DNA of 37,747 nucleotides, from NCBI GenBank assembly GCA_002790195.1, contig PFUR01000081.1:1-37747 (forward strand), given 5' to 3'. Each line of letters starts with the position of its first letter. Position 1 is the first letter of the stretch. The notes under the pieces are model-generated. The model did not search any database. It was given only the letters and a program-made list of their open reading frames with translations, and had not been told where the DNA came from. The translations under genes and the position numbers were made by a program. Of the stretch, positions 8,169 to 25,433 are shown in pieces. The DNA comes from Flavobacteriales bacterium CG_4_9_14_3_um_filter_40_17 (GTDB taxonomy: Bacteria > Bacteroidota > Bacteroidia > Flavobacteriales > Flavobacteriaceae).

Positions 8169-9356
8169 TTATTCTAAGATGGCTGCAACACCGGGCAATG
8201 TTTTACCTTCAAGCATCTCAAGCATTGCGCCACCGCCTGTTGAGACATAACTCATTTGATTTTCTAAACCAAATTGCTTCACGGCAGCAACTGAATCTCC
8301 GCCGCCCACCAACGAGAATGCACCTTTTTTAGTTGCTTCTCCTATGGCTTCACCCAAAGAGATGGTTCCTTTGGAAAAATTTTCCATTTCAAAAACACCA
8401 ACCGGCCCATTCCACAAAATGGTTCTCGATTTGGCAATTACCTCAGAGAATAGTGCCAAAGTTTTCGGGCCTGCATCGAGCCCCTGCCATCCGTCCGGTA
8501 TTTTATCTACATCAAAAATTTGCATTTTGGCATCGTTGCTAAAACTATCTGCGCCCACAACATCGACCGGCAAGTGGATTTGAACCCCTTTGGCTTTGGC
8601 TTTTTTCAGGATTTCGAGAGCCAATTCTTGCTTGTCGTCTTCACAGATGGAATTTCCGATTTTGCCGCCTTGCGCTTTTACAAAAGTGTAAGTCATACCG
8701 CCACCGATAATCAGGTGGTTGACCTTGTCGAGCATGTTTTCGATGATGGTAATCTTGGAAGACACCTTTGAACCACCCAGTATGGCAGTTACAGGTTTTT
8801 CGCCGTCTTTAAATACCTTGTTGATGCTTTCAATCTCTTTGGCCAACAAAAAGCCGAAACATTTTTTGTTTGGGAAAAATTCGGCAACAATGGTCGTCGA
8901 AGCGTGTGCGCGGTGTGCTGTGCCGAACGCATCATTTACATAAATATCTCCCAAGGAGGCCAATTGTTTGGAGAAATTCTTCTCTCCTTTTTCTTCTTCG
9001 GCATAAAAACGGAGGTTTTCAAGCAACAAGATTTCTCCAGGGTGAAGGGCATGAGCCGCGTCTTCCGCAATTTTTCCGATACAATCGGTGGCAAATTTGA
9101 CCCGAACACCCAATATTTCAGAAGTTTTATCAACGATATGACGCAACGAAAACTCGTCCTGCTTTCCTTTTGGCCTGCCTAAGTGGGACATCAGAATAGC
9201 ACATCCGCCATCTTCCAATATTTTGATGATAGTGGGTTTTGCAGCTTCAATGCGGTTGGTGTCGGTTATTTCGAATTGATCGTTGAGCGGAACGTTGAAA
9301 TCTACCCGAATCAGTGCTTTTTGGTTTTTAAAATTGAAATCTTTAACGGTTTTCAT
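8169..9356 (-). CDS. pgk: Phosphoglycerate kinase
   Basis: Glycolytic and gluconeogenic enzyme that interconverts 1,3-bisphosphoglycerate plus ADP with 3-phosphoglycerate plus ATP. The protein has 395 residues, the normal bacterial length. Motifs seen in order are [10 protein letters not shown] (the PGK signature), [36 protein letters not shown], and near the end [13 protein letters not shown] and [18 protein letters not shown] for nucleotide binding. The ATG at 9356 (MKTVKDFNF) matches the family start; an upstream in-frame ATG at 9416 would add 20 residues and overlap the DUF2652 gene. It lies 56 bases after that gene. Identification is certain. Confidence 0.97.
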
Positions 9357-9412: not shown

Positions 9413-10501
9413 TCAAGATTCCAAAACAAAGCCAGATTCGACTAAGTTTTTTATCTCTTTCAGATTTTCCCGGATGGTTTTTTTGAAAACCCTCGTGACT
9501 GCAAATTTAAAAATTTGCCCAAAGATGGTAAAATCTGCATAAACCTCGGCTATCAAACGCGTCTTTTTTTGACCAGCTTCTTCTACTACAAAATAGATGT
9601 GCAGGTTTTTCACTAAGGGGATTTCCTTGATGCGTTCACCATAGACCAACTGTTTAGGTTCGACTTGTTTGTTGATGGTAACGGGCATTAGTTTTTTACC
9701 TCTTCCCACAATACATTGGTGTTGCGTGCCTACCCTGTTCAGCCGGCTTTCATCGTAATCGAGTTGTTTGATGTGCTTGTTCCACAATTTCCGATATTTA
9801 AAATTGCTGAGGACTTCATATAAAGAAAGGCAGTCGGTTTCAATCAATTCTTCATCATAAACCAACTTATGCTTGGGAATATCCAAGGGAATTGCCGGCA
9901 CATAAGGGACTTCTTTCTTCAACTCACCAAGCGGAAGATAGAAATAATCAATTTCGCCAAAATCATAGGTTTCATTTCCCGCGATAGCGGATTTCAAAAA
10001 ATCAAAAGCATCTTGGTGGTTATTTTCAAATGAAAACACACTTTTTGTAAACAAGACATATTCATCAATGGGTATTTTGTTTTTGAGCAACCGATGTGCT
10101 TTGATAACCTCGCTGCCAAAAGGTTTGACAGACTTTTTTACTTTGATGAATTCAACATTGCCATAATGTACGATGAATTTTAAGCTCAGATTTTCGGTCG
10201 ATGAACAGGCTCCGCAATGGCAAACGCGTTCGTATTGATAGCGTTTCAGTTGTTTTTGAAGCCCGATAAACATCACGCGGACTTGTTTAAAAATAAGATC
10301 GAGCGTGGGGATATTATGGGTTTTATAAAGGAACAAGGCATCGCCTTCTATTTCTGCCAACTCCAGTTTGAGGATATTGTTTTCCAGCAAATCTTCCAAC
10401 AATTCAGACATGATGTGTCGGCTGTGATTGATATCGGTATTGTGGACAAACTCCGAAAAACCACTAATGTCCGGAATGAAAAATAAAGCTTTCTGGCTCA
10501 T
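9413..10501 (-). CDS. DUF2652 protein: class III cyclase-like domain fused to SRPBCC domain
   Basis: A 362-residue cytoplasmic protein. The N-terminal domain (about 1-185) opens with [15 protein letters not shown], which matches the start of class III nucleotidyl cyclases. Asp11 and Asp54 (in [10 protein letters not shown]) line up with the two metal-binding aspartates at the right spacing. HYGNV and [12 protein letters not shown] match later cyclase strands, but by eye the transition-state Asn is Ile133 and the purine-selecting Asp is Lys126, while the Arg (Arg137) remains. A VCHCGAC cluster (Cys94, His95, Cys96, Cys99) is inserted. The C-terminal half (about 200-350) looks like an SRPBCC/START-like lipid-binding fold. 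The ATG at 10501 is favoured by the family start. It lies upstream of pgk. Whether it makes a cyclic nucleotide is doubtful. Confidence 0.85.
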
Positions 10502-13728: not shown

Positions 13729-14634
13729 TTAAAAAATCTTGCGAAGCAACAAATCCACGTCAATCAGTAGAATGCTGAAAACACCCGAAACGATGATTAT
13801 TTTCAACAGATTGTGTAGCAATACATAGTGTATTTTTGATTTTGATTTCCACAGAAAAACCAACAGCAAAACGAGTATCGCCACACAGCCGTAGTAATAC
13901 AGATACATATATCCGATTGGGAATCGGTTGACGAGAATGAAGATTACGACAATCGTAACCAAAGATAAAATACTGAAGGCGGCTTTAGATATTTGTTCGC
14001 CGTAAACCACCGGTATTGTCCGATAATTTTTCACCAAATCGCCTTTGAGATTTTCGAGGTCTTTGGTTAGTTCGCGCATCAACAGAAATAAAAAAAGTAC
14101 CGTAGCATGGGCGAAAATAACCTCTTGAAAATTTTTATAATAGACAAACACCGCGAAAAAAGGTGTGATAGTCAAAAATGCAGAAACGAGGTTTCCAATT
14201 AACGTCAATTTCTTTAATCGAACGGAATAAATCCAAATCCCAAAGATATAAGCACCAAAGAAAACAGCGGCTCGAAAGGAAACTAAAACAGCTACAAAAA
14301 CGGCTAAAAAATTGAGTGAAAAATAAGTGAGCAGCCGGCTTCGTTGACTGATGAGCCTTTCCCAAGCGGTGCGGTGCGGACGGTTAATCAAATCTTTTTC
14401 GGCATCATAAAAACTGTTGATGATGTAGCCCGAAGCGATGCACAGAGAGGAGGCTACTACCAAAAGGAAAAGTTTCGGATCAAACAAGACTTGCCGGACA
14501 GATAAATCGGGTGAAAAAATATAAATTGCGGCTAAGTATTGTGCCAAAGCCAAAACCATGACATTATAGCCCCTGACGACCGCAAACAAACCGAAGATTT
14601 TCAGAAGTAACAGTTTGTTTTTTCGAGAAAGCAT
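13729..14634 (-). CDS. UbiA family prenyltransferase
   Basis: Polytopic inner-membrane protein of 301 residues with about eight or nine helices. The first magnesium-diphosphate motif is intact as NSFYDAEKD (Asn73, Asp77, Asp81), and the second is RELTKDLENLKGD. NRPHRT after the first motif is typical of the group. UbiA enzymes attach an isoprenoid chain to an aromatic ring or to a glycerol lipid. In Flavobacteriia this type is commonly annotated as geranylgeranylglycerol-phosphate geranylgeranyltransferase-like, by resemblance to archaeal lipid enzymes; a quinone role is not excluded. It starts six bases after the stop of the mevalonate-kinase-like gene, so it probably draws on that pathway. 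The exact acceptor is unknown. Confidence 0.88.
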   Translation of the reverse strand: MLSRKNKLLLLKIFGLFAVVRGYNVMVLALAQYLAAIYIFSPDLSVRQVLFDPKLFLLVVASSLCIASGYIINSFYDAEKDLINRPHRTAWERLISQRSRLLTYFSLNFLAVFVAVLVSFRAAVFFGAYIFGIWIYSVRLKKLTLIGNLVSAFLTITPFFAVFVYYKNFQEVIFAHATVLFLFLLMRELTKDLENLKGDLVKNYRTIPVVYGEQISKAAFSILSLVTIVVIFILVNRFPIGYMYLYYYGCVAILVLLLVFLWKSKSKIHYVLLHNLLKIIIVSGVFSILLIDVDLLLRKIF

Positions 14635-14640
14635 GAGGCA

Positions 14641-15579
14641 TTAAAAGTTGTAAACTACTTCCAAATGATAGTTTTTGAGTGCTTGTTTTGCGCGCGCTAA
14701 GTCCTCTGTAAAACCTAAGATATAGCCACCACCTCCCGACCCACAGAGTTTGAGGTAGTAGGCATTGGTTTCGATTCCTTGTTTCCAAAGTTGGTGAAAC
14801 TGATTGGGAATCATGGGTTTGAAATTGTCCAACACCACTTTTGACAGCTTTTTGATGTTACCAAACAGCGATTTGACGTCTGCTTTGAGGAAATCATCCA
14901 CACAGGCATTGGTGTAATGGACAAATTCTTTTTGAAGCATCTCGTTAAACGCGTCTTCTTTGCTATTTTCCATAAAAATCTGCACCATCGGAGCGGTTTC
15001 ACCCACAATGCCCGAATCCAACAAAAACACGGCTCCCTTGCCTTCTTTCTTTTGTGAAGGAATGCCAGTAGGCTCAATGTTGTCTTTGGAATTGATCAGT
15101 ATAGGCAGGCTTAGGTAACTGTTGAGCGGATCGAGGCCAGAACTTTTTCCGTGAAAAAAAGATTCCATCTCTGAAAAAATTTGTTTCAGGCGGAGCAGTT
15201 TCTCACGAGTAAGGTTTTCTAACACCGTGATTTTATCAAAAGCGTAACGGTCATATATCGCGGCGACCAAAGCACCCGAACTCCCAACGCCATATCCTTG
15301 CGGAATACTAGAATCGAAATACATACCTTCGTCCAAATCTTTTCGCAGCGCATCTAAATTGAACCGAACCATATCGGGTAGTGCGGCTTGCAGACCAGCC
15401 AAATAATGATAAAACTTCAGCAAACCTTCGGATGATTTTCTGGCAGCTTCCGATTTATTTTTACTTTTTTTTAAGGCACCTTTGTAAAAATTATAGGGAA
15501 TGGACAAACCTTTCGAATCTTTGATGATACCATACTCGCCAAAAAGCAAAATTTTTGAGTAAAACAAAGGGCCTTTCAT
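14641..15579 (-). CDS. Mevalonate kinase-like GHMP kinase
   Basis: A 312-residue soluble kinase of the GHMP superfamily. The ATP-binding signature PQGYGVGSSGALVAA is at about 93-107, and HGKSSGLDPLNSY carries the second conserved region with the catalytic Asp. The C-terminal LCGSGGGGYILGF loop is the third GHMP motif. Position between diphosphomevalonate decarboxylase and a prenyltransferase supports phosphorylation of mevalonate in isoprenoid synthesis. The N-terminal KILLFGEYGI is a variant of the usual GEHAVVYG of mevalonate kinases, and a phosphomevalonate kinase role cannot be excluded from sequence alone. Length is normal and all three motifs are intact. Confidence 0.87.
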   Translation of the reverse strand: MKGPLFYSKILLFGEYGIIKDSKGLSIPYNFYKGALKKSKNKSEAARKSSEGLLKFYHYLAGLQAALPDMVRFNLDALRKDLDEGMYFDSSIPQGYGVGSSGALVAAIYDRYAFDKITVLENLTREKLLRLKQIFSEMESFFHGKSSGLDPLNSYLSLPILINSKDNIEPTGIPSQKKEGKGAVFLLDSGIVGETAPMVQIFMENSKEDAFNEMLQKEFVHYTNACVDDFLKADVKSLFGNIKKLSKVVLDNFKPMIPNQFHQLWKQGIETNAYYLKLCGSGGGGYILGFTEDLARAKQALKNYHLEVVYNF

Positions 15580-15601
15580 AAATTATTTTTTAAGTCACAA
15601 T

Positions 15602-15609
15602 CAAAAGTA
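15602..15609 (-). promoter_or_regulatory. TAnnTTTG -7 box upstream of the mevalonate kinase-like gene
   Basis: Minus-strand TACTTTTG lies 22 bases before the ATG at 15579, inside the 58-base spacer after mvaD. It could supply an internal promoter. Confidence 0.35.
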
Positions 15610-15637
15610 ACAAATTCATTCTTAATAAAATGCAAAA

Positions 15638-16723
15638 TTATAACAATTTTGCCCCGCTTCCAACCTCATCATCTATAAAAGCATTGTTTCTGCAAAAAAT
15701 CAACAATTCTTTTTGGATAAAATCCATGACTGATTTCTTGTTTGCCTTTGGGTAAAGCATATGTACATTGGCTCCGGCATCGAGCGTGAAGCAAAGCGGC
15801 ACAGTAGATTGTTTTCTAAAAGCCCATACTTTTTCAATGACTTGAAGCGTTTCGGGTTTCATCAAAATAAAATAGGGTTGCGATGTCATCATCATAGCGT
15901 GTAAAGTCAGTGCTTCGCTTTCGGTTATTTTGATAAATTGATCTAAATCGCCGGTTTCCATGGCGATAAGCAATTTGAGTAGATTTTCATTTGCTTGAGT
16001 GAACCGTTTTTCGGCAAACGGATGCCCTTGCATCAATTGATGGCCTTGCGAACTCGAAACGGTTTTTTCACCAATGTCTATCAGTAAAATGGTGTCTTGA
16101 TAATCTAAAAAAACGGGATGAATTTCTATTTCGGGTTTGACACCAAACAAGTCTGAACTCTCTTTAATATACGCGTGTTTCCCCCAAACAACCAAAGGGC
16201 CTTCGATGCTTCGACAAGCACTTCCCGAACCCAAACGTGCCAGAAAGGAGGCTTTTTGATTCAAAAAAGATTCGGATAATTGGGGGTTGAGCTTTTTCTC
16301 CAACTGCATCAAGCCAAAAGCCAAAGCACCCATGCCACTCGCAGAGGAAGCAATGCCTGAACTGTGCGGAAAGGTATTGTGGGTGTGAATCTCGAAATGG
16401 TAGTGTTTGACAAACGGCACATAGGCCTCGGCCAACTCAAAAAACTTCTGAATTTTCGGTTTAAAAGCTTCATTGGGGTTGCCTTCAAAAATCAAATCGA
16501 AAGAAACTTTGGGCGAAGGATTCTCGATAAATCTGTAATAGAGCGTGGTGACTGTTTTGGAATGTCTGAGCGTAAAACTCACAGACGGATTGGCGGGAAT
16601 TTGTACATCGGTTTTTCCCCAATATTTCACCAACGCGATGTTGCTCGGAGCCTCGCAATTGATCACGCCCGAATCGGCGTTTGTTGGAGAATCGGCAGCT
16701 ATAAAATCTTCAGCTTGCATCAT
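15638..16723 (-). CDS. mvaD: Diphosphomevalonate decarboxylase
   Basis: Cytoplasmic GHMP-fold enzyme that converts mevalonate diphosphate to isopentenyl diphosphate with ATP, the last step of the mevalonate pathway. The substrate-site segment SNIALVKYWGK is at about 26-36, the ATP loop PHSSGIASSASGMGAL follows the HTHNTF segment, and LGSGSACRS is the third diagnostic motif. Length is about 361 residues. Two adjacent ATG codons (16723 and 16720) fit the family start; a TTG at 16789 would add an unlike extension. It heads a cluster with the mevalonate-kinase-like gene and a UbiA prenyltransferase. The pathway is the non-MEP route usual in Flavobacteriia. Confidence 0.95.
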   Translation of the reverse strand: MMQAEDFIAADSPTNADSGVINCEAPSNIALVKYWGKTDVQIPANPSVSFTLRHSKTVTTLYYRFIENPSPKVSFDLIFEGNPNEAFKPKIQKFFELAEAYVPFVKHYHFEIHTHNTFPHSSGIASSASGMGALAFGLMQLEKKLNPQLSESFLNQKASFLARLGSGSACRSIEGPLVVWGKHAYIKESSDLFGVKPEIEIHPVFLDYQDTILLIDIGEKTVSSSQGHQLMQGHPFAEKRFTQANENLLKLLIAMETGDLDQFIKITESEALTLHAMMMTSQPYFILMKPETLQVIEKVWAFRKQSTVPLCFTLDAGANVHMLYPKANKKSVMDFIQKELLIFCRNNAFIDDEVGSGAKLL

Positions 16724-17333: not shown

Positions 17334-18467
17334 TTAATTCATAAATAGCCCGGCACCAAGTTCCGACCCAAGCGTTCCAGGTTTAAGGTGCAAGTAATAT
17401 TTGCTGGTAGGGTCTTTCACAATTTCTACTTTCCCCTCTTTTTTAATGATGACATCTTTTCCGTATTTCAAAAGTTTTGGATTGGCAGGTGTTCCAAAGC
17501 CTGATGCGCCGCCACCTTCATTCACAAAGTGGTTGTACCCAATGACCATGGAGTTTGAAAGATTGAACGTTTTATTGGAATTCTTTTCTTTGTCTAAAAC
17601 CCAAAAAATCTCGGCATCAGCCACTACATTGTTATAATATCTGAAATCCTTATCTACAGACCATGACCACACCGCCGCTCCATAGATGTTCACAATCAGG
17701 TTGTGATGCATTTCAGAATTTTCGGAAGGCGTATCCGAAAACCAAAACACCACAGCATCTTTCACCCCGTAAAACACACAATGATCTACCACCACACCTT
17801 GGCCGCTAGCCAAAATAGCCAAATGGTTGGGGGTGGCATGAATATCTCCAATAAATAAGCATTGGGTAACCCTTAGATCATCCAAGTTTAATCCTTCACG
17901 GACTATGGGGTAATTTCGCTTCACCATGCCGTCCTTGGGGCGTTCATGTAAGGGTGAACCCAAAACTCTAAGGCCTTGAATAGTTACATGGCTGGTTTCT
18001 ATCTGAATTCCATAAGAGGTGCCACCAAGGCCATCTTCATTCCCATAAGGCTTAAAATTCAGTGGCATCGTGGAAATAATTACCGGCATCTTCCCCGGAT
18101 CCCAACCGGCATCATCGGGCAGAATTTCAGCACGGATGGTAAGTCGCCCTTCTCTGGTAAAGTGCCAGTTAGCCGGATGAAAAGTTACCGTAGCACCTAA
18201 GCCATATAAACCTTCGGAAAGAAAAATAGTGATGACTCCTTTACCATTGGCTTGGTTCAAACGGCGTGCTGCCTCAAACAAAGATTTCAGTGGATTTCCC
18301 TTTGTTCCGCTGTTATGGTCATTGCCCAACTCCGGGTTTAAATAAATGTTGCCGTCTTTTGGAATGGTATTTTCTTGATACTGTTGTGCAAAAGAAAAAT
18401 GAGTAATCAATAGCAGCACTAAGCAAACCAATAGCAGCTTGCTTTTAAAGGTTTTGTTCTTTTTCAT
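17334..18467 (-). CDS. Secreted right-handed parallel beta-helix protein
   Basis: A 377-residue exported protein. Residues 1-27 form a signal peptide (basic start, long hydrophobic core, then SFAQQ). The mature start has IYLNPELGNDHNSGTKGNPL, the usual opening of beta-helix proteins of the pectate-lyase-like fold, followed by repeating short strands such as VTIQGLRVLGSP, RVTQCLFIG, VVDHCVFYG and EMHHNLIVNIYG. Such proteins bind or cleave polysaccharides, or are only structural; no catalytic triad can be assigned by eye. No type IX C-terminal sorting domain is visible. It is monocistronic, with the hydrolase remnant downstream and a Crp/Fnr gene upstream on the same strand. Confidence 0.85.
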   Translation of the reverse strand: MKKNKTFKSKLLLVCLVLLLITHFSFAQQYQENTIPKDGNIYLNPELGNDHNSGTKGNPLKSLFEAARRLNQANGKGVITIFLSEGLYGLGATVTFHPANWHFTREGRLTIRAEILPDDAGWDPGKMPVIISTMPLNFKPYGNEDGLGGTSYGIQIETSHVTIQGLRVLGSPLHERPKDGMVKRNYPIVREGLNLDDLRVTQCLFIGDIHATPNHLAILASGQGVVVDHCVFYGVKDAVVFWFSDTPSENSEMHHNLIVNIYGAAVWSWSVDKDFRYYNNVVADAEIFWVLDKEKNSNKTFNLSNSMVIGYNHFVNEGGGASGFGTPANPKLLKYGKDVIIKKEGKVEIVKDPTSKYYLHLKPGTLGSELGAGLFMN

Positions 18468-18582: not shown

Positions 18583-19194
18583 TTAAGCGTTTGGGTTGGC
18601 TTGACGATTGCGCAAGCGGCTTAAAAATTCAGGGGTGATGCCCAAATAAGAGGCTATTTGGGTTTGTGGCAAGCGATTGGTGAGGTGTGGATAGGTTTCC
18701 ATAAAGGACAAATACCTATTCTCGGCTGTAGAACTGATGTTTTGCAACAACCTAGTTTGGAGCGACACAAAACTGTTTTCAATAAGCACCCTAAAAATAC
18801 GGTCGAACTTGGGAACATCCGTATAGAGTGCAATAAGATTGTCATAGCTAATTTGCAATACTGTGCTGTCTTCAAGCGCATCGATATTTAATTCGGAAGG
18901 TGTTTTTCCGTGAAAACTGCCGAGGTCTAACATCCAACCATTTTCGGCGGCAAACTGAAGGATATGAAAGTTGCCCTTTTCGTCCACTTTATACATCCTT
19001 AGGCAACCACTGACCACAAAATTAAACTGCGTACAGACATCACCATTCTGCAACACATACTGCCGTTTTAGGTAAAGCCGTGGTTTGAAAAAATTGATTG
19101 CCAACTGTTTTTCCGCAATGCTCAGAGGCATCATCTTTTGGAAGTAATCCAATAATGTTTCCACAGCGTTATGAAATGATTGGTCTTGACTCAT
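18583..19194 (-). CDS. Crp/Fnr family transcriptional regulator
   Basis: A 203-residue cytoplasmic DNA-binding protein. The N-terminal cyclic-nucleotide-binding-like beta barrel runs from about 20 to 125, with YVLQNGDVCTQFNFVVSGCL and WMLDLGSF. A dimerisation helix follows, then a helix-turn-helix at about 170-197 with TQIASYLGITPEFLSRLR. The effector-binding Glu and Arg of true CRP are not evident, so cAMP binding is doubtful; no Fnr cysteine cluster is present. The ATG at 19194 is preferred to a GTG at 19215. A 22-base near-palindrome lies 45 bases upstream and may be its operator. The beta-helix gene 115 bases downstream is a possible target or operon partner. Confidence 0.9.
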   Translation of the reverse strand: MSQDQSFHNAVETLLDYFQKMMPLSIAEKQLAINFFKPRLYLKRQYVLQNGDVCTQFNFVVSGCLRMYKVDEKGNFHILQFAAENGWMLDLGSFHGKTPSELNIDALEDSTVLQISYDNLIALYTDVPKFDRIFRVLIENSFVSLQTRLLQNISSTAENRYLSFMETYPHLTNRLPQTQIASYLGITPEFLSRLRNRQANPNA

Positions 19195-19238
19195 TTTTAT
19201 CACTAAATCTGACACGTTTTGATGAATTGATCGGTAAC

Positions 19239-23572: not shown

Positions 23573-25396
23573 TTAGTCATTTTCCTCTAATGCCTCTCCC
23601 CCATGTTGTTCGGCTAATTTTCGTTCTAACTCAGCTTGAAACTCTTCCATCACCGGTTTGACGGTTTCTTCAGGCAAATCAGCGATTCTTAAATACATCA
23701 ATCCGTCAACCGAGTTGTTAAACAAGGGATCTACATTGAAAGCAACCAATTTGGCGTTTTGTTTGACATATTTCTTCAAAAGAACGGGAAGGCGGAGTGT
23801 GCCGGGCTCGAGTTCATCAATCAAACGGTCAAATTTGTTGAGATCGGCTTCCGTTTCGTCAAACACAAAATCTTTATCTGCGTCTTCCAAATTGACTTTA
23901 AATTCTTTTTTCGGGTGGACGTATTGTGCGATATACGGATCGTAGTAATGCGATTTCATAAACTGTATCATCAACGATTTTGAAAAGTTTGAAAAACGGT
24001 TGCTGATGCTCACACCCCCCATCAAAAATTTGTGTTCGGGATTGCGAAGTGCTGTATGAATGATGCCACGCCAAAGCAAAAACAAAGGCATGGGTTTCTG
24101 TTGGTATTCGGAAATGATAAACGCGCGCCCCATCTCTATGGTTTGTCTCATCATACCGTAGAGTTCGGGTTCAAAACGAAACAAATCTTGGCAATAAAAC
24201 CCGTTGATGCCATATTTGGCAAATATCTCGCTACCCAATCCCATCCGATAGGCACCAACTATTTTTTGGGTTTCATTATCCCACAAAAACAAATGATGAT
24301 AGTAGGTGTCAAACGCGTCTAAATCGATGGCTTGGTTAGTTCCCTCACCAATTTCCCGGAAGGTAATTTCGCGCAGGCGGCCAATTTCCCTCAAAATTTT
24401 CGGGATTTGAATTGCCTCAGCAAGAAAAACTTCATAATTCTTACTCGCCAACAATCTTGTACCCAAAGCCCGGATCAAATCGACTTCCTGAATGATGCTT
24501 TTTTGGTCGATGGGTTTGATGATTTTTTTGGGTGGTTTGGGTATTTTGAGTTTGTTTTTCAGATTGAAACGCTCTTTTTCAAATGGTTTTGCTAACAAGT
24601 AGGTTTTTCTTCTCAAAAAGCCCGAATAAGCACCAATTGAATCGATTTCATCTTGACTGTCAACACCAATTGGTCTTCCGATGCGAACGTGAATAACCCT
24701 GTTTTTTTGTGAAAGCAATTCTGAAGGTAGTTTGGCCGTACGAAGCAGGTCGCTGATTTGTGACAAAAAGTAAAATGTCTTGCTGTTTTTGGCATGAAAA
24801 TAAATTGGCACCACCGGAACTCTGGCTTTTTTTATCAGTTTGATGGCTGTTTCTTCCCAAGGTTTGTCGACCAATAATTTTCCATCGCGATAGGTTGAGA
24901 CCTCGCCGGCAGGGAATATACCCAACGGTTTGCCGTCTTGCAGGTGTTGCAAAGCAGTCTTAAAGCCCATGAAACTCGATTTGGCATCTTTCCGGTCTTC
25001 AAATGGGTTGACCGGCAGTATTTTATCTTTAAGGGGTTCAATCCGTTGCAACAAAAAATTTCCGATGATTTTAAAGTCGCTTCTTTTTTCGAGCATCAAA
25101 TGCAGGAGCAAAATTCCGTCGATACCGCCGAGCGGATGGTTAGAAACCGTGATAAAAGGGCCTTCTTTTGGGAGCCGTTTGAAATCTTCTTCCGGAATAT
25201 CAAAATTGATTTGAAATTCATTCATCAAACTCTGCAAACACGCTTCGGCATCCAAATGCTTGTTGCGGTTGTATATTTTGTTGAGGGTCGATATTTTCAA
25301 TATTTTCATCAAAACCCATCCCAAGAAAGTTCCGATAAACCTGTATTTATCTACCTTGATGGCTTTGGCAATTTCTTTGGGTGTGACTAAGGACAT
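23573..25396 (-). CDS. Bifunctional acyltransferase of aminolipid synthesis, OlsF/GlsF type
   Basis: A 607-residue fusion. The N-terminal half (about 60-290) is a PlsC-like O-acyltransferase: SNHPLGGID at 85-93 (His87, Asp93, spacing HX5D instead of HX4D) and FPAGEVSTYR at 161-170. The C-terminal half (about 325-560) is the OlsB/GlsB-like GNAT N-acyltransferase, with ITFREIGEGT, DLDAFDTYYHHLFLWD and KIVGAYRMGLG. Published work describes such fusions (OlsF of Serratia and Flavobacterium johnsoniae) that acylate ornithine, and GlsA/GlsB in Bacteroides that make glycine lipids. The ATG at 25396 is preferred to an upstream start at 25426. The amino-acid headgroup used here cannot be read from sequence. 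Confidence 0.88.
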   Translation of the reverse strand: MSLVTPKEIAKAIKVDKYRFIGTFLGWVLMKILKISTLNKIYNRNKHLDAEACLQSLMNEFQINFDIPEEDFKRLPKEGPFITVSNHPLGGIDGILLLHLMLEKRSDFKIIGNFLLQRIEPLKDKILPVNPFEDRKDAKSSFMGFKTALQHLQDGKPLGIFPAGEVSTYRDGKLLVDKPWEETAIKLIKKARVPVVPIYFHAKNSKTFYFLSQISDLLRTAKLPSELLSQKNRVIHVRIGRPIGVDSQDEIDSIGAYSGFLRRKTYLLAKPFEKERFNLKNKLKIPKPPKKIIKPIDQKSIIQEVDLIRALGTRLLASKNYEVFLAEAIQIPKILREIGRLREITFREIGEGTNQAIDLDAFDTYYHHLFLWDNETQKIVGAYRMGLGSEIFAKYGINGFYCQDLFRFEPELYGMMRQTIEMGRAFIISEYQQKPMPLFLLWRGIIHTALRNPEHKFLMGGVSISNRFSNFSKSLMIQFMKSHYYDPYIAQYVHPKKEFKVNLEDADKDFVFDETEADLNKFDRLIDELEPGTLRLPVLLKKYVKQNAKLVAFNVDPLFNNSVDGLMYLRIADLPEETVKPVMEEFQAELERKLAEQHGGEALEEND

Positions 25397-25415
25397 GGTT
25401 GGTTTGAGGTTTATA

Positions 25416-25433
25416 CAAAAATACACAAAAATA
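25416..25433 (-). promoter_or_regulatory. Two TAnnTTTG -7 boxes upstream of the OlsF-type gene
   Basis: Minus-strand TATTTTTG occurs at 25416-25423 and 25426-25433, 19 and 29 bases ahead of the ATG at 25396. Either could be the -7 element. Confidence 0.4.

Follow-up and report, generated by a model that had tools for sequence, protein, structure and literature searches.

A DUF2652 protein of a Flavobacteriales genome with a cyclase-like domain, a predicted Cys3His site and a fused SRPBCC/START-like domain

Introduction

What does a protein do that keeps the metal-binding aspartates of class III nucleotidyl cyclases and carries unusual residues elsewhere in the active site? This question is raised by a gene found in a stretch of 37,747 nucleotides (hereafter the window; contig PFUR01000081.1, forward strand) from Flavobacteriales bacterium CG_4_9_14_3_um_filter_40_17, a member of the Flavobacteriaceae. 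A preliminary description of the window, made by eye, recognised a cyclase-like domain in the encoded protein, with isoleucine (Ile133) in place of the catalytic asparagine and lysine (Lys126) at the purine-selecting position, and took these two replacements to suggest either a nucleotide sensor that no longer cyclises or an enzyme with altered chemistry.

The protein belongs to DUF2652, a family predicted to be class III cyclases by Ramakrishnan et al. in 2016 (PMC4886424). For the Bacteroidetes members, which in Table 1 of that paper include proteins of 354–383 amino acids, the metal aspartates, a Glu-Lys pair, a His and an Arg (or Gln and others) are reported; the Glu-Lys pair was already read as GTP-selecting and guanylyl cyclase activity was predicted, while Ile in place of Asn was noted for mycobacterial members (PMC4886424). 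The family assignment and the odd residues are known already. In the open-access literature searched we found no measured activity or experimental study of any DUF2652 protein.

Methods

DUF2652 proteins were sampled in four overlapping draws of genomes, each of which contains the window's own genome: from the phylum (30 of 395 genomes with a match), the class (21 of 395), the family (70 of 299) and a set of relatives (13 of 60). The resulting 132 loci gave 132 DUF2652 matches, which became 124 distinct rows once near-copies had been merged; a fragment in G274, another in G408 and a complete match in G686, all listed by the genome searches, are not among these loci, and the start codons of the aligned proteins were picked by script. 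A length of at least 300 amino acids, found in 82 proteins, was used as a proxy for the presence of the fused C-terminal domain. The register of the active site was taken from 15 canonical cyclases of the same bacterial family, which carry the motifs KTIGDAYM and YDIWGDTVNxASRM.

In the screen for a fourth metal ligand we used columns 1–199, excluding 90–103. The tree was built without the columns of the Cys cluster and of His26; it is of a quick kind, made from few columns, and 47 of its 121 inner branches are left open. Two rows, L164 and L031, were left out when column/residue states were compared on this tree, and for the test of independent pairs the gap in L031 was scored as absence of His. 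For the genomic neighbourhood, pgk was matched in 36 genomes, and 30 pgk loci were retrieved from these.

Results

The protein is encoded on the minus strand (coding sequence 9416–10501, stop codon 9413–9415; Table 1), and its residues 31–148 match DUF2652 (PF10851) with an E of 1.3e-38 and 132 bits, against a gathering cut-off of 22.1. The Pfam scan gave no match of the protein to PF00211, and no NCBIfam model matched it above a cut-off. A single DUF2652 gene is present in the host genome, in which a scan found zero PF00211 cyclases. A contig search with the single sequence gave four relatives in total, and these are the closest named ones: three records from Psychroserpens and one from Flavobacteriales, with 51% identity; a relative with 69% identity is present in another genome of the window's genus. 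Phage records contain zero DUF2652 matches at E 0.01. Among plasmid records there are two matches, both from Rhodobacterales and outside the 124-row set. On these plasmids (L188, where the protein has 377 amino acids, and L189) a gene for a formylglycine-generating enzyme family protein lies near the DUF2652 gene; the sulfatase-related genes nearby also comprise sulfatase-like hydrolases in L188, and in L189 a Crp/Fnr regulator is encoded upstream of the DUF2652 gene on the same strand.

Table 1 Coordinates in the window of the DUF2652 protein, its domains and key residues, and the adjoining pgk gene.
Feature	Position	Strand	Basis or conservation
DUF2652 + SRPBCC protein, 362 aa, stop included	9413..10501	-	
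Class III cyclase-like domain, residues 1-196	9914..10501	-	AlphaFold2 model and structure matches
Asp11, metal ligand 1	10469..10471	-	120 Asp, 1 Asn, 3 gaps of 124
His26, predicted fourth ligand of Cys3His site	10424..10426	-	co-occurrence with CxCxxC
Glu50, base-selecting (Lys in adenylyl, Glu in guanylyl cyclases)	10352..10354	-	119/124 Glu, 3 Lys, 1 Ser, 1 Asn
Asp54, metal ligand 2	10340..10342	-	124/124
Cys94-x-Cys96-x2-Cys99, predicted zinc ligands	10205..10222	-	CxCxxC in 89/124
Lys126, partner base-selecting position	10124..10126	-	117/124 Lys, 5 Glu, 1 Gln, 1 Met
Ile133, catalytic Asn position	10103..10105	-	110 Ile, 10 Val, 2 Thr, 2 Asn of 124
His136-Arg137-Leu-Leu-Lys140-Asn141	10079..10096	-	His136 and Lys140 124/124, Asn141 120
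SRPBCC/START-like domain, residues 210-357	9431..9874	-	fold and profile match
His261-x-Cys263, SRPBCC domain	9713..9721	-	His 75/82, Cys 79/82 long proteins
pgk, next gene downstream	8169..9356	-	PF00162, E 4.6e-158

The AlphaFold2 model of the protein (56 sequences) has a mean pLDDT of 93.0 and a pTM of 0.83. Its residues 1–192 superpose on the CyaC adenylyl cyclase (1wc1_C) with Z 18.7 and an rmsd of 2.4 over 177 aligned residues, the other structure matches extending to residue 196, and Foldseek likewise recovered both the cyclase and the SRPBCC groups. By structure comparison, the N-terminal domain thus has the cyclase homology-domain fold of class III nucleotidyl cyclases, as the preliminary description had proposed, and no contrary fold was seen. 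We also modelled a short relative, L037 (198 amino acids, 13 sequences, pLDDT 91.8), which has neither the Cys cluster nor the C-terminal domain. This model matches the Cya2 guanylyl cyclase 2w01_B with Z 18.2 (rmsd 2.5, 175 aligned) and CyaC 1wc1_A with Z 18.1, so that in the modelled protein the cyclase fold is kept despite the missing Cys cluster. Comparison of the DUF2652 profile with the 15 canonical cyclases by hhalign was not significant (E 0.1, probability 0.56%), and we therefore base the kinship with cyclases on the fold match; in the hhalign alignment the metal aspartates and the arginine are in register. A profile search of solved structures returned no cyclase, its best rows being only SRPBCC proteins.

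Judged against the translation of the reading frame, the earlier placements of Asp11, Asp54, Lys126, Ile133 and Arg137 are correct, and the by-eye alignment from which they came was accurate. The two metal aspartates of class III cyclases correspond to Asp11, which is Asp in 120 of the 121 relatives with a residue there, and Asp54, which has no exception; poor conservation, which would have spoken against this role, was not seen. In the register of the 15 canonical cyclases Ile133 stands at the catalytic Asn, Arg137 follows four residues later at the transition-state Arg, and Lys126 lies seven residues before Ile133, where those cyclases have Asp. The transition-state Asn-Arg pair, usual in these enzymes but not universal, is thus broken, as Arg is present and Asn is replaced by Ile. 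Counts over the 124 relatives, the check that the preliminary description had proposed, indicate that Lys126 and Ile133 are both family-wide traits and not oddities of one protein. Arg137 is Arg in 100 of the 124, Lys in 12 and another residue in 12. Besides His136 and Lys140, the residues Gly53, Lys108, Gly129 and Tyr148 are identical in all 124 proteins and His112 in 123, the remaining one having an X.

In the canonical cyclase alignment Glu50, which the preliminary description had passed over and which stands four residues before Asp54, occupies the Lys/Glu position that pairs with position 126. The pair is Glu/Lys in 117 of the 124 proteins and Lys/Glu in three (L038, L041 and L046), which form one clade of the tree, while Glu/Gln, Glu/Met, Ser/Glu and Asn/Glu occur once each. 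Two of the three reversed proteins, L041 and L046, are short, retain only two cysteines of the cluster and carry Lys or Arg at position 26. Glu50 fits guanylyl cyclases, and Lys126 falls outside the partner residues (C, S, T, H, A and G) listed for them in PMC4215837. As a putative base-reading pair, Glu50/Lys126 suits a guanine or a uracil pocket; contacts of Glu with N1/N2 of guanine and of Lys with O6 are sound chemistry. Two proteins from two genomes of the same phylum, L042 and L163, carry the canonical Asn at position 133, and DUF2652 proteins are therefore not uniformly devoid of it. Read by eye, a Rhodobacterales relative outside the 124-row set (P0002) carries Gly, Glu and Phe at positions 50, 126 and 136, which shows that beyond the phylum His136 can be replaced; the same protein keeps both His26 and the Cys cluster.

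The preliminary description had pointed to an inserted C-H-C-x2-C cluster. Its cysteines (Cys94-His95-Cys96-x2-Cys99 in the window protein) proved to be widespread, occurring in 80 of the 82 proteins of at least 300 amino acids and in 9 of the 42 shorter ones, but His95 is His in only 11 of the 89 cluster rows. The histidine that varies with the cluster is instead His26, present in 88 of the 88 cluster rows that have a residue there and in 1 of 35 rows without the cluster (phi 0.98; next best column 0.80). The cluster row with a gap at position 26 is L031, and the single non-cluster row with His26, L164, retains a partial motif. With these two set aside, the cluster and His26 each change four times on the tree; out of 626 column/residue states His26 alone shares all four changes of the cluster and has none extra, and four states share three. 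A test of independent pairs on the starred branches gave three pairs, of which two changed in the same direction, none in the opposite direction and one showed no difference. As these are too few for significance, we place the weight on the co-occurrence and the shared changes on the tree.

The model places His26 close to the beginning of helix 24–40 and the cysteines after helix 67–90; in such a fold, the start of the former and the end of the latter presumably share the end that bears the metal aspartates. A set of three cysteines and one histidine is typical of structural zinc. From the sequences, we predict that His26, Cys94, Cys96 and Cys99 form a Cys3His zinc site. We had also considered whether His261 and Cys263 of the C-terminal domain complete the cluster in an inter-domain metal site, and dropped this idea because His26 explains the cluster far better; L026 and L027 lack the Cys cluster and both of these residues, but the two are sisters and their joint loss counts as one event.

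The preliminary description had also proposed a START-like (SRPBCC) domain behind the cyclase-like one, and here too the structure comparison agrees. In the model, residues 210–356 have the helix-grip fold of the SRPBCC/START superfamily, matching SMU.440 (3ijt_A) with Z 17.1 (rmsd 2.6, 139 aligned) and PYR1/PYL chains with Z 16.3–16.7. The C-terminal half of the window protein gave no convincing Pfam match; its profile matches a solved SRPBCC protein, 7tmu_A, with an E of 6.3e-4, and a scan of 56 relatives, five of them short proteins that lack a C-terminal half, found Polyketide_cyc2 in 30 at an E of 0.1 or better. Tyr287 and Glu289 are conserved among the 82 long proteins, in addition to His261 and Cys263. 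The domain probably binds a small hydrophobic molecule.

In the window the gene is surrounded by housekeeping genes, among them pgk, comEC and mltD. As first described, pgk is adjacent, 56 bp downstream, and comEC lies upstream, all on the same strand. We found pgk in the fetched flank of 21 of the 23 other members of the window's clade (the exceptions are L152 and L076), and by tblastn in none of the examined loci outside the clade, where most flanks span about 1 to 1.5 kb. A comparison of 23 regions included 17 from outside the clade, all of them without pgk and mostly with different neighbours; L086, L087 and L091 share genes among themselves. As for the pgk loci fetched, mltD is in the flank of 17 of the 30. 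No DUF2652 gene is seen in 13 of the 17, one of which (L195) is cut within pgk by the end of its contig and so allows no verdict. Since the pgk-mltD order occurs without the DUF2652 gene, we rejected pgk as a functional clue, and the neighbourhood says little on function; the adjacency looks like the inherited gene order of one clade. Predicted promoters (8, against 6.6 in shuffles) and terminators (5, against 3.1) gave no signal.

The phosphate-cassette Arg is a trait of cAMP and cGMP receptors. The host genome encodes five cNMP_binding proteins, none of which has it, and no cNMP receiver is therefore evident there. One cNMP_binding protein, CRP-like and likewise without the cassette Arg, is encoded in the window at 18586–19215 (minus strand, E 2.8e-12), about 8 kb from the cyclase-like gene. 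Elsewhere on the minus strand lie adjoining genes for a UbiA prenyltransferase, a GHMP kinase and a diphosphomevalonate decarboxylase (13732–16723), which we infer to be part of the mevalonate pathway, a reading frame of 377 aa that no Pfam model matches at E 0.001 (17337–18467) and a 617-aa protein with an acyltransferase (Acyltransf_2) and a GNAT acetyltransferase (Acetyltransf_5) domain (23576–25426).

Discussion

Our results add to the record a predicted fourth ligand that joins the cysteines, the wide occurrence of the SRPBCC fusion, and Glu50 as the partner of Lys126 in a pair that is reversed in one clade. The common C-terminal domain and the co-occurrence of His26 with the cluster appear to be new: the 2016 paper describes all but one protein as single-domain, does not use the words 'zinc' and 'SRPBCC', and discusses cysteine and histidine at other positions (PMC4886424). 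The window protein shares its fold (2w01_D, Z 17.9; 1wc1_C, Z 18.7) and the two metal aspartates with Cya2 and CyaC, and Cya2 also has Glu at the guanine position, as Glu50 here (PMC4886424). It differs from both in Lys126, in Ile133, in a Cys cluster between helix and strand and in the trailing SRPBCC domain. This domain has the fold of SMU.440 (3ijt), the PYR1/PYL abscisic acid receptors and BexL (4xrw), at Z 16–17; unlike these proteins, it is fused behind a cyclase-like domain and has the conserved His261, Cys263, Tyr287 and Glu289. A parallel for the metal site is AnPycC, a Pycsar uridylate cyclase of clade D, which has a class III fold and a Cys3His zinc site that matters for activity, since no product was formed by a mutant in three of its Cys residues (PMC11224242). 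The zinc ligands of AnPycC (C221, C223, C260 and H263) are on a C-terminal ribbon, in contrast to the predicted site here, its setting is defence, and the excerpted text mentions no SRPBCC domain (PMC11224242).

From the predicted folds, the conservation and the co-occurrence of His26 with the cluster we infer a soluble, homodimeric class III-type nucleotidyl cyclase, likely using GTP, with a zinc site and with control by a ligand of the SRPBCC domain, a reading to which we give even chances. In such an enzyme Asp11 and Asp54 would hold two metal ions, and Glu50 and Lys126 would read the base, most likely guanine, through the contacts described above. Arg137, with His136 and Lys140, may deal with the triphosphate, a task that usually falls to the Asn and a C-terminal Lys. 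The zinc site would pin the start of helix 24–40 to the loop after helix 67–90, both at the active-site end of the cyclase domain, and the C-terminal SRPBCC domain would bind a hydrophobic ligand and thereby set the output of the cyclase.

Whether the protein is active at all is what divides this model from a pseudo-cyclase that would bind GTP or another nucleotide and metal without cyclisation and relay the binding to the SRPBCC domain, which we regard as unlikely. Such a receptor would account for the replacement of Asn in 122 of the 124 relatives, for a residue other than Arg at position 137 in 24 of them, a point that speaks against activity, as does the Phe at position 136 of P0002, and for the lack of a canonical cNMP receiver in the host genome. 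It sits less well with the near-invariant metal aspartates and polar residues, which would be unusual under relaxed constraint; that they are kept across diverged proteins is a pattern to be expected of a working site. Nor need the loss of Asn mean inactivity, as Ma1120 is an active class III cyclase with Ala at that position (PMC4215837) and Rv1900c, as told in PMC4886424, is active without the Asn; for this reason we do not treat Asn as a defining residue. Lys126 is no sign of inactivity either, being half of a pair that is chemically sensible for GTP. The original argument from the lost Asn and Asp to a protein that no longer cyclises or has altered chemistry is therefore weak, and from its sequence we predict an active cyclase with a probability of about one half.

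If the protein is active, its substrate could also be UTP, in a chemistry like that of Pycsar, with Glu50/Lys126 reading N3-H and O4 of uracil. In BcPycC, UTP recognition is ascribed to an acidic residue, Asp94 (PMC11224242), which may correspond to Glu50, the predicted Cys3His zinc site has its counterpart in AnPycC, and five PycC models of PADLOC matched weakly among the 56 relatives, none of them in more than three members and with a best E of 0.0063. The window protein itself is matched by zero PADLOC families at E 0.1, PycC models included, and none of the ten neighbouring genes scanned in the window resembles an effector, so that we find a pyrimidine cyclase distinctly improbable. A further alternative concerns only the metal site and is compatible with either activity: the three close cysteines, with His26, could bind an Fe-S cluster or serve as a redox switch, and a table in PMC12828279 associates DUF2652 with electron transport, with glutathione metabolism and with the biogenesis of Fe-S clusters. 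As His26 completes a four-ligand set of the structural-zinc type, this is very improbable.

A bolder proposal, and an unlikely one, is that DUF2652-SRPBCC proteins form a new subclass of ligand-gated guanylyl or uridylyl cyclases, which would have a base-reading Glu/Lys pair open to reversal in evolution, Asn-free catalysis by His136, Arg137 and Lys140 and a Cys3His brace, and would produce a messenger in the host. Identification of His26 as the candidate fourth ligand makes the predicted metal site testable, and together with the common SRPBCC fusion it poses a concrete question: which ligand, and which nucleotide? If the cyclase model is true, the phylum would have an unrecognised, ligand-controlled cyclic-nucleotide pathway; if it proves to be a sensor, the protein would offer a clear example of a receptor derived from a cyclase fold.
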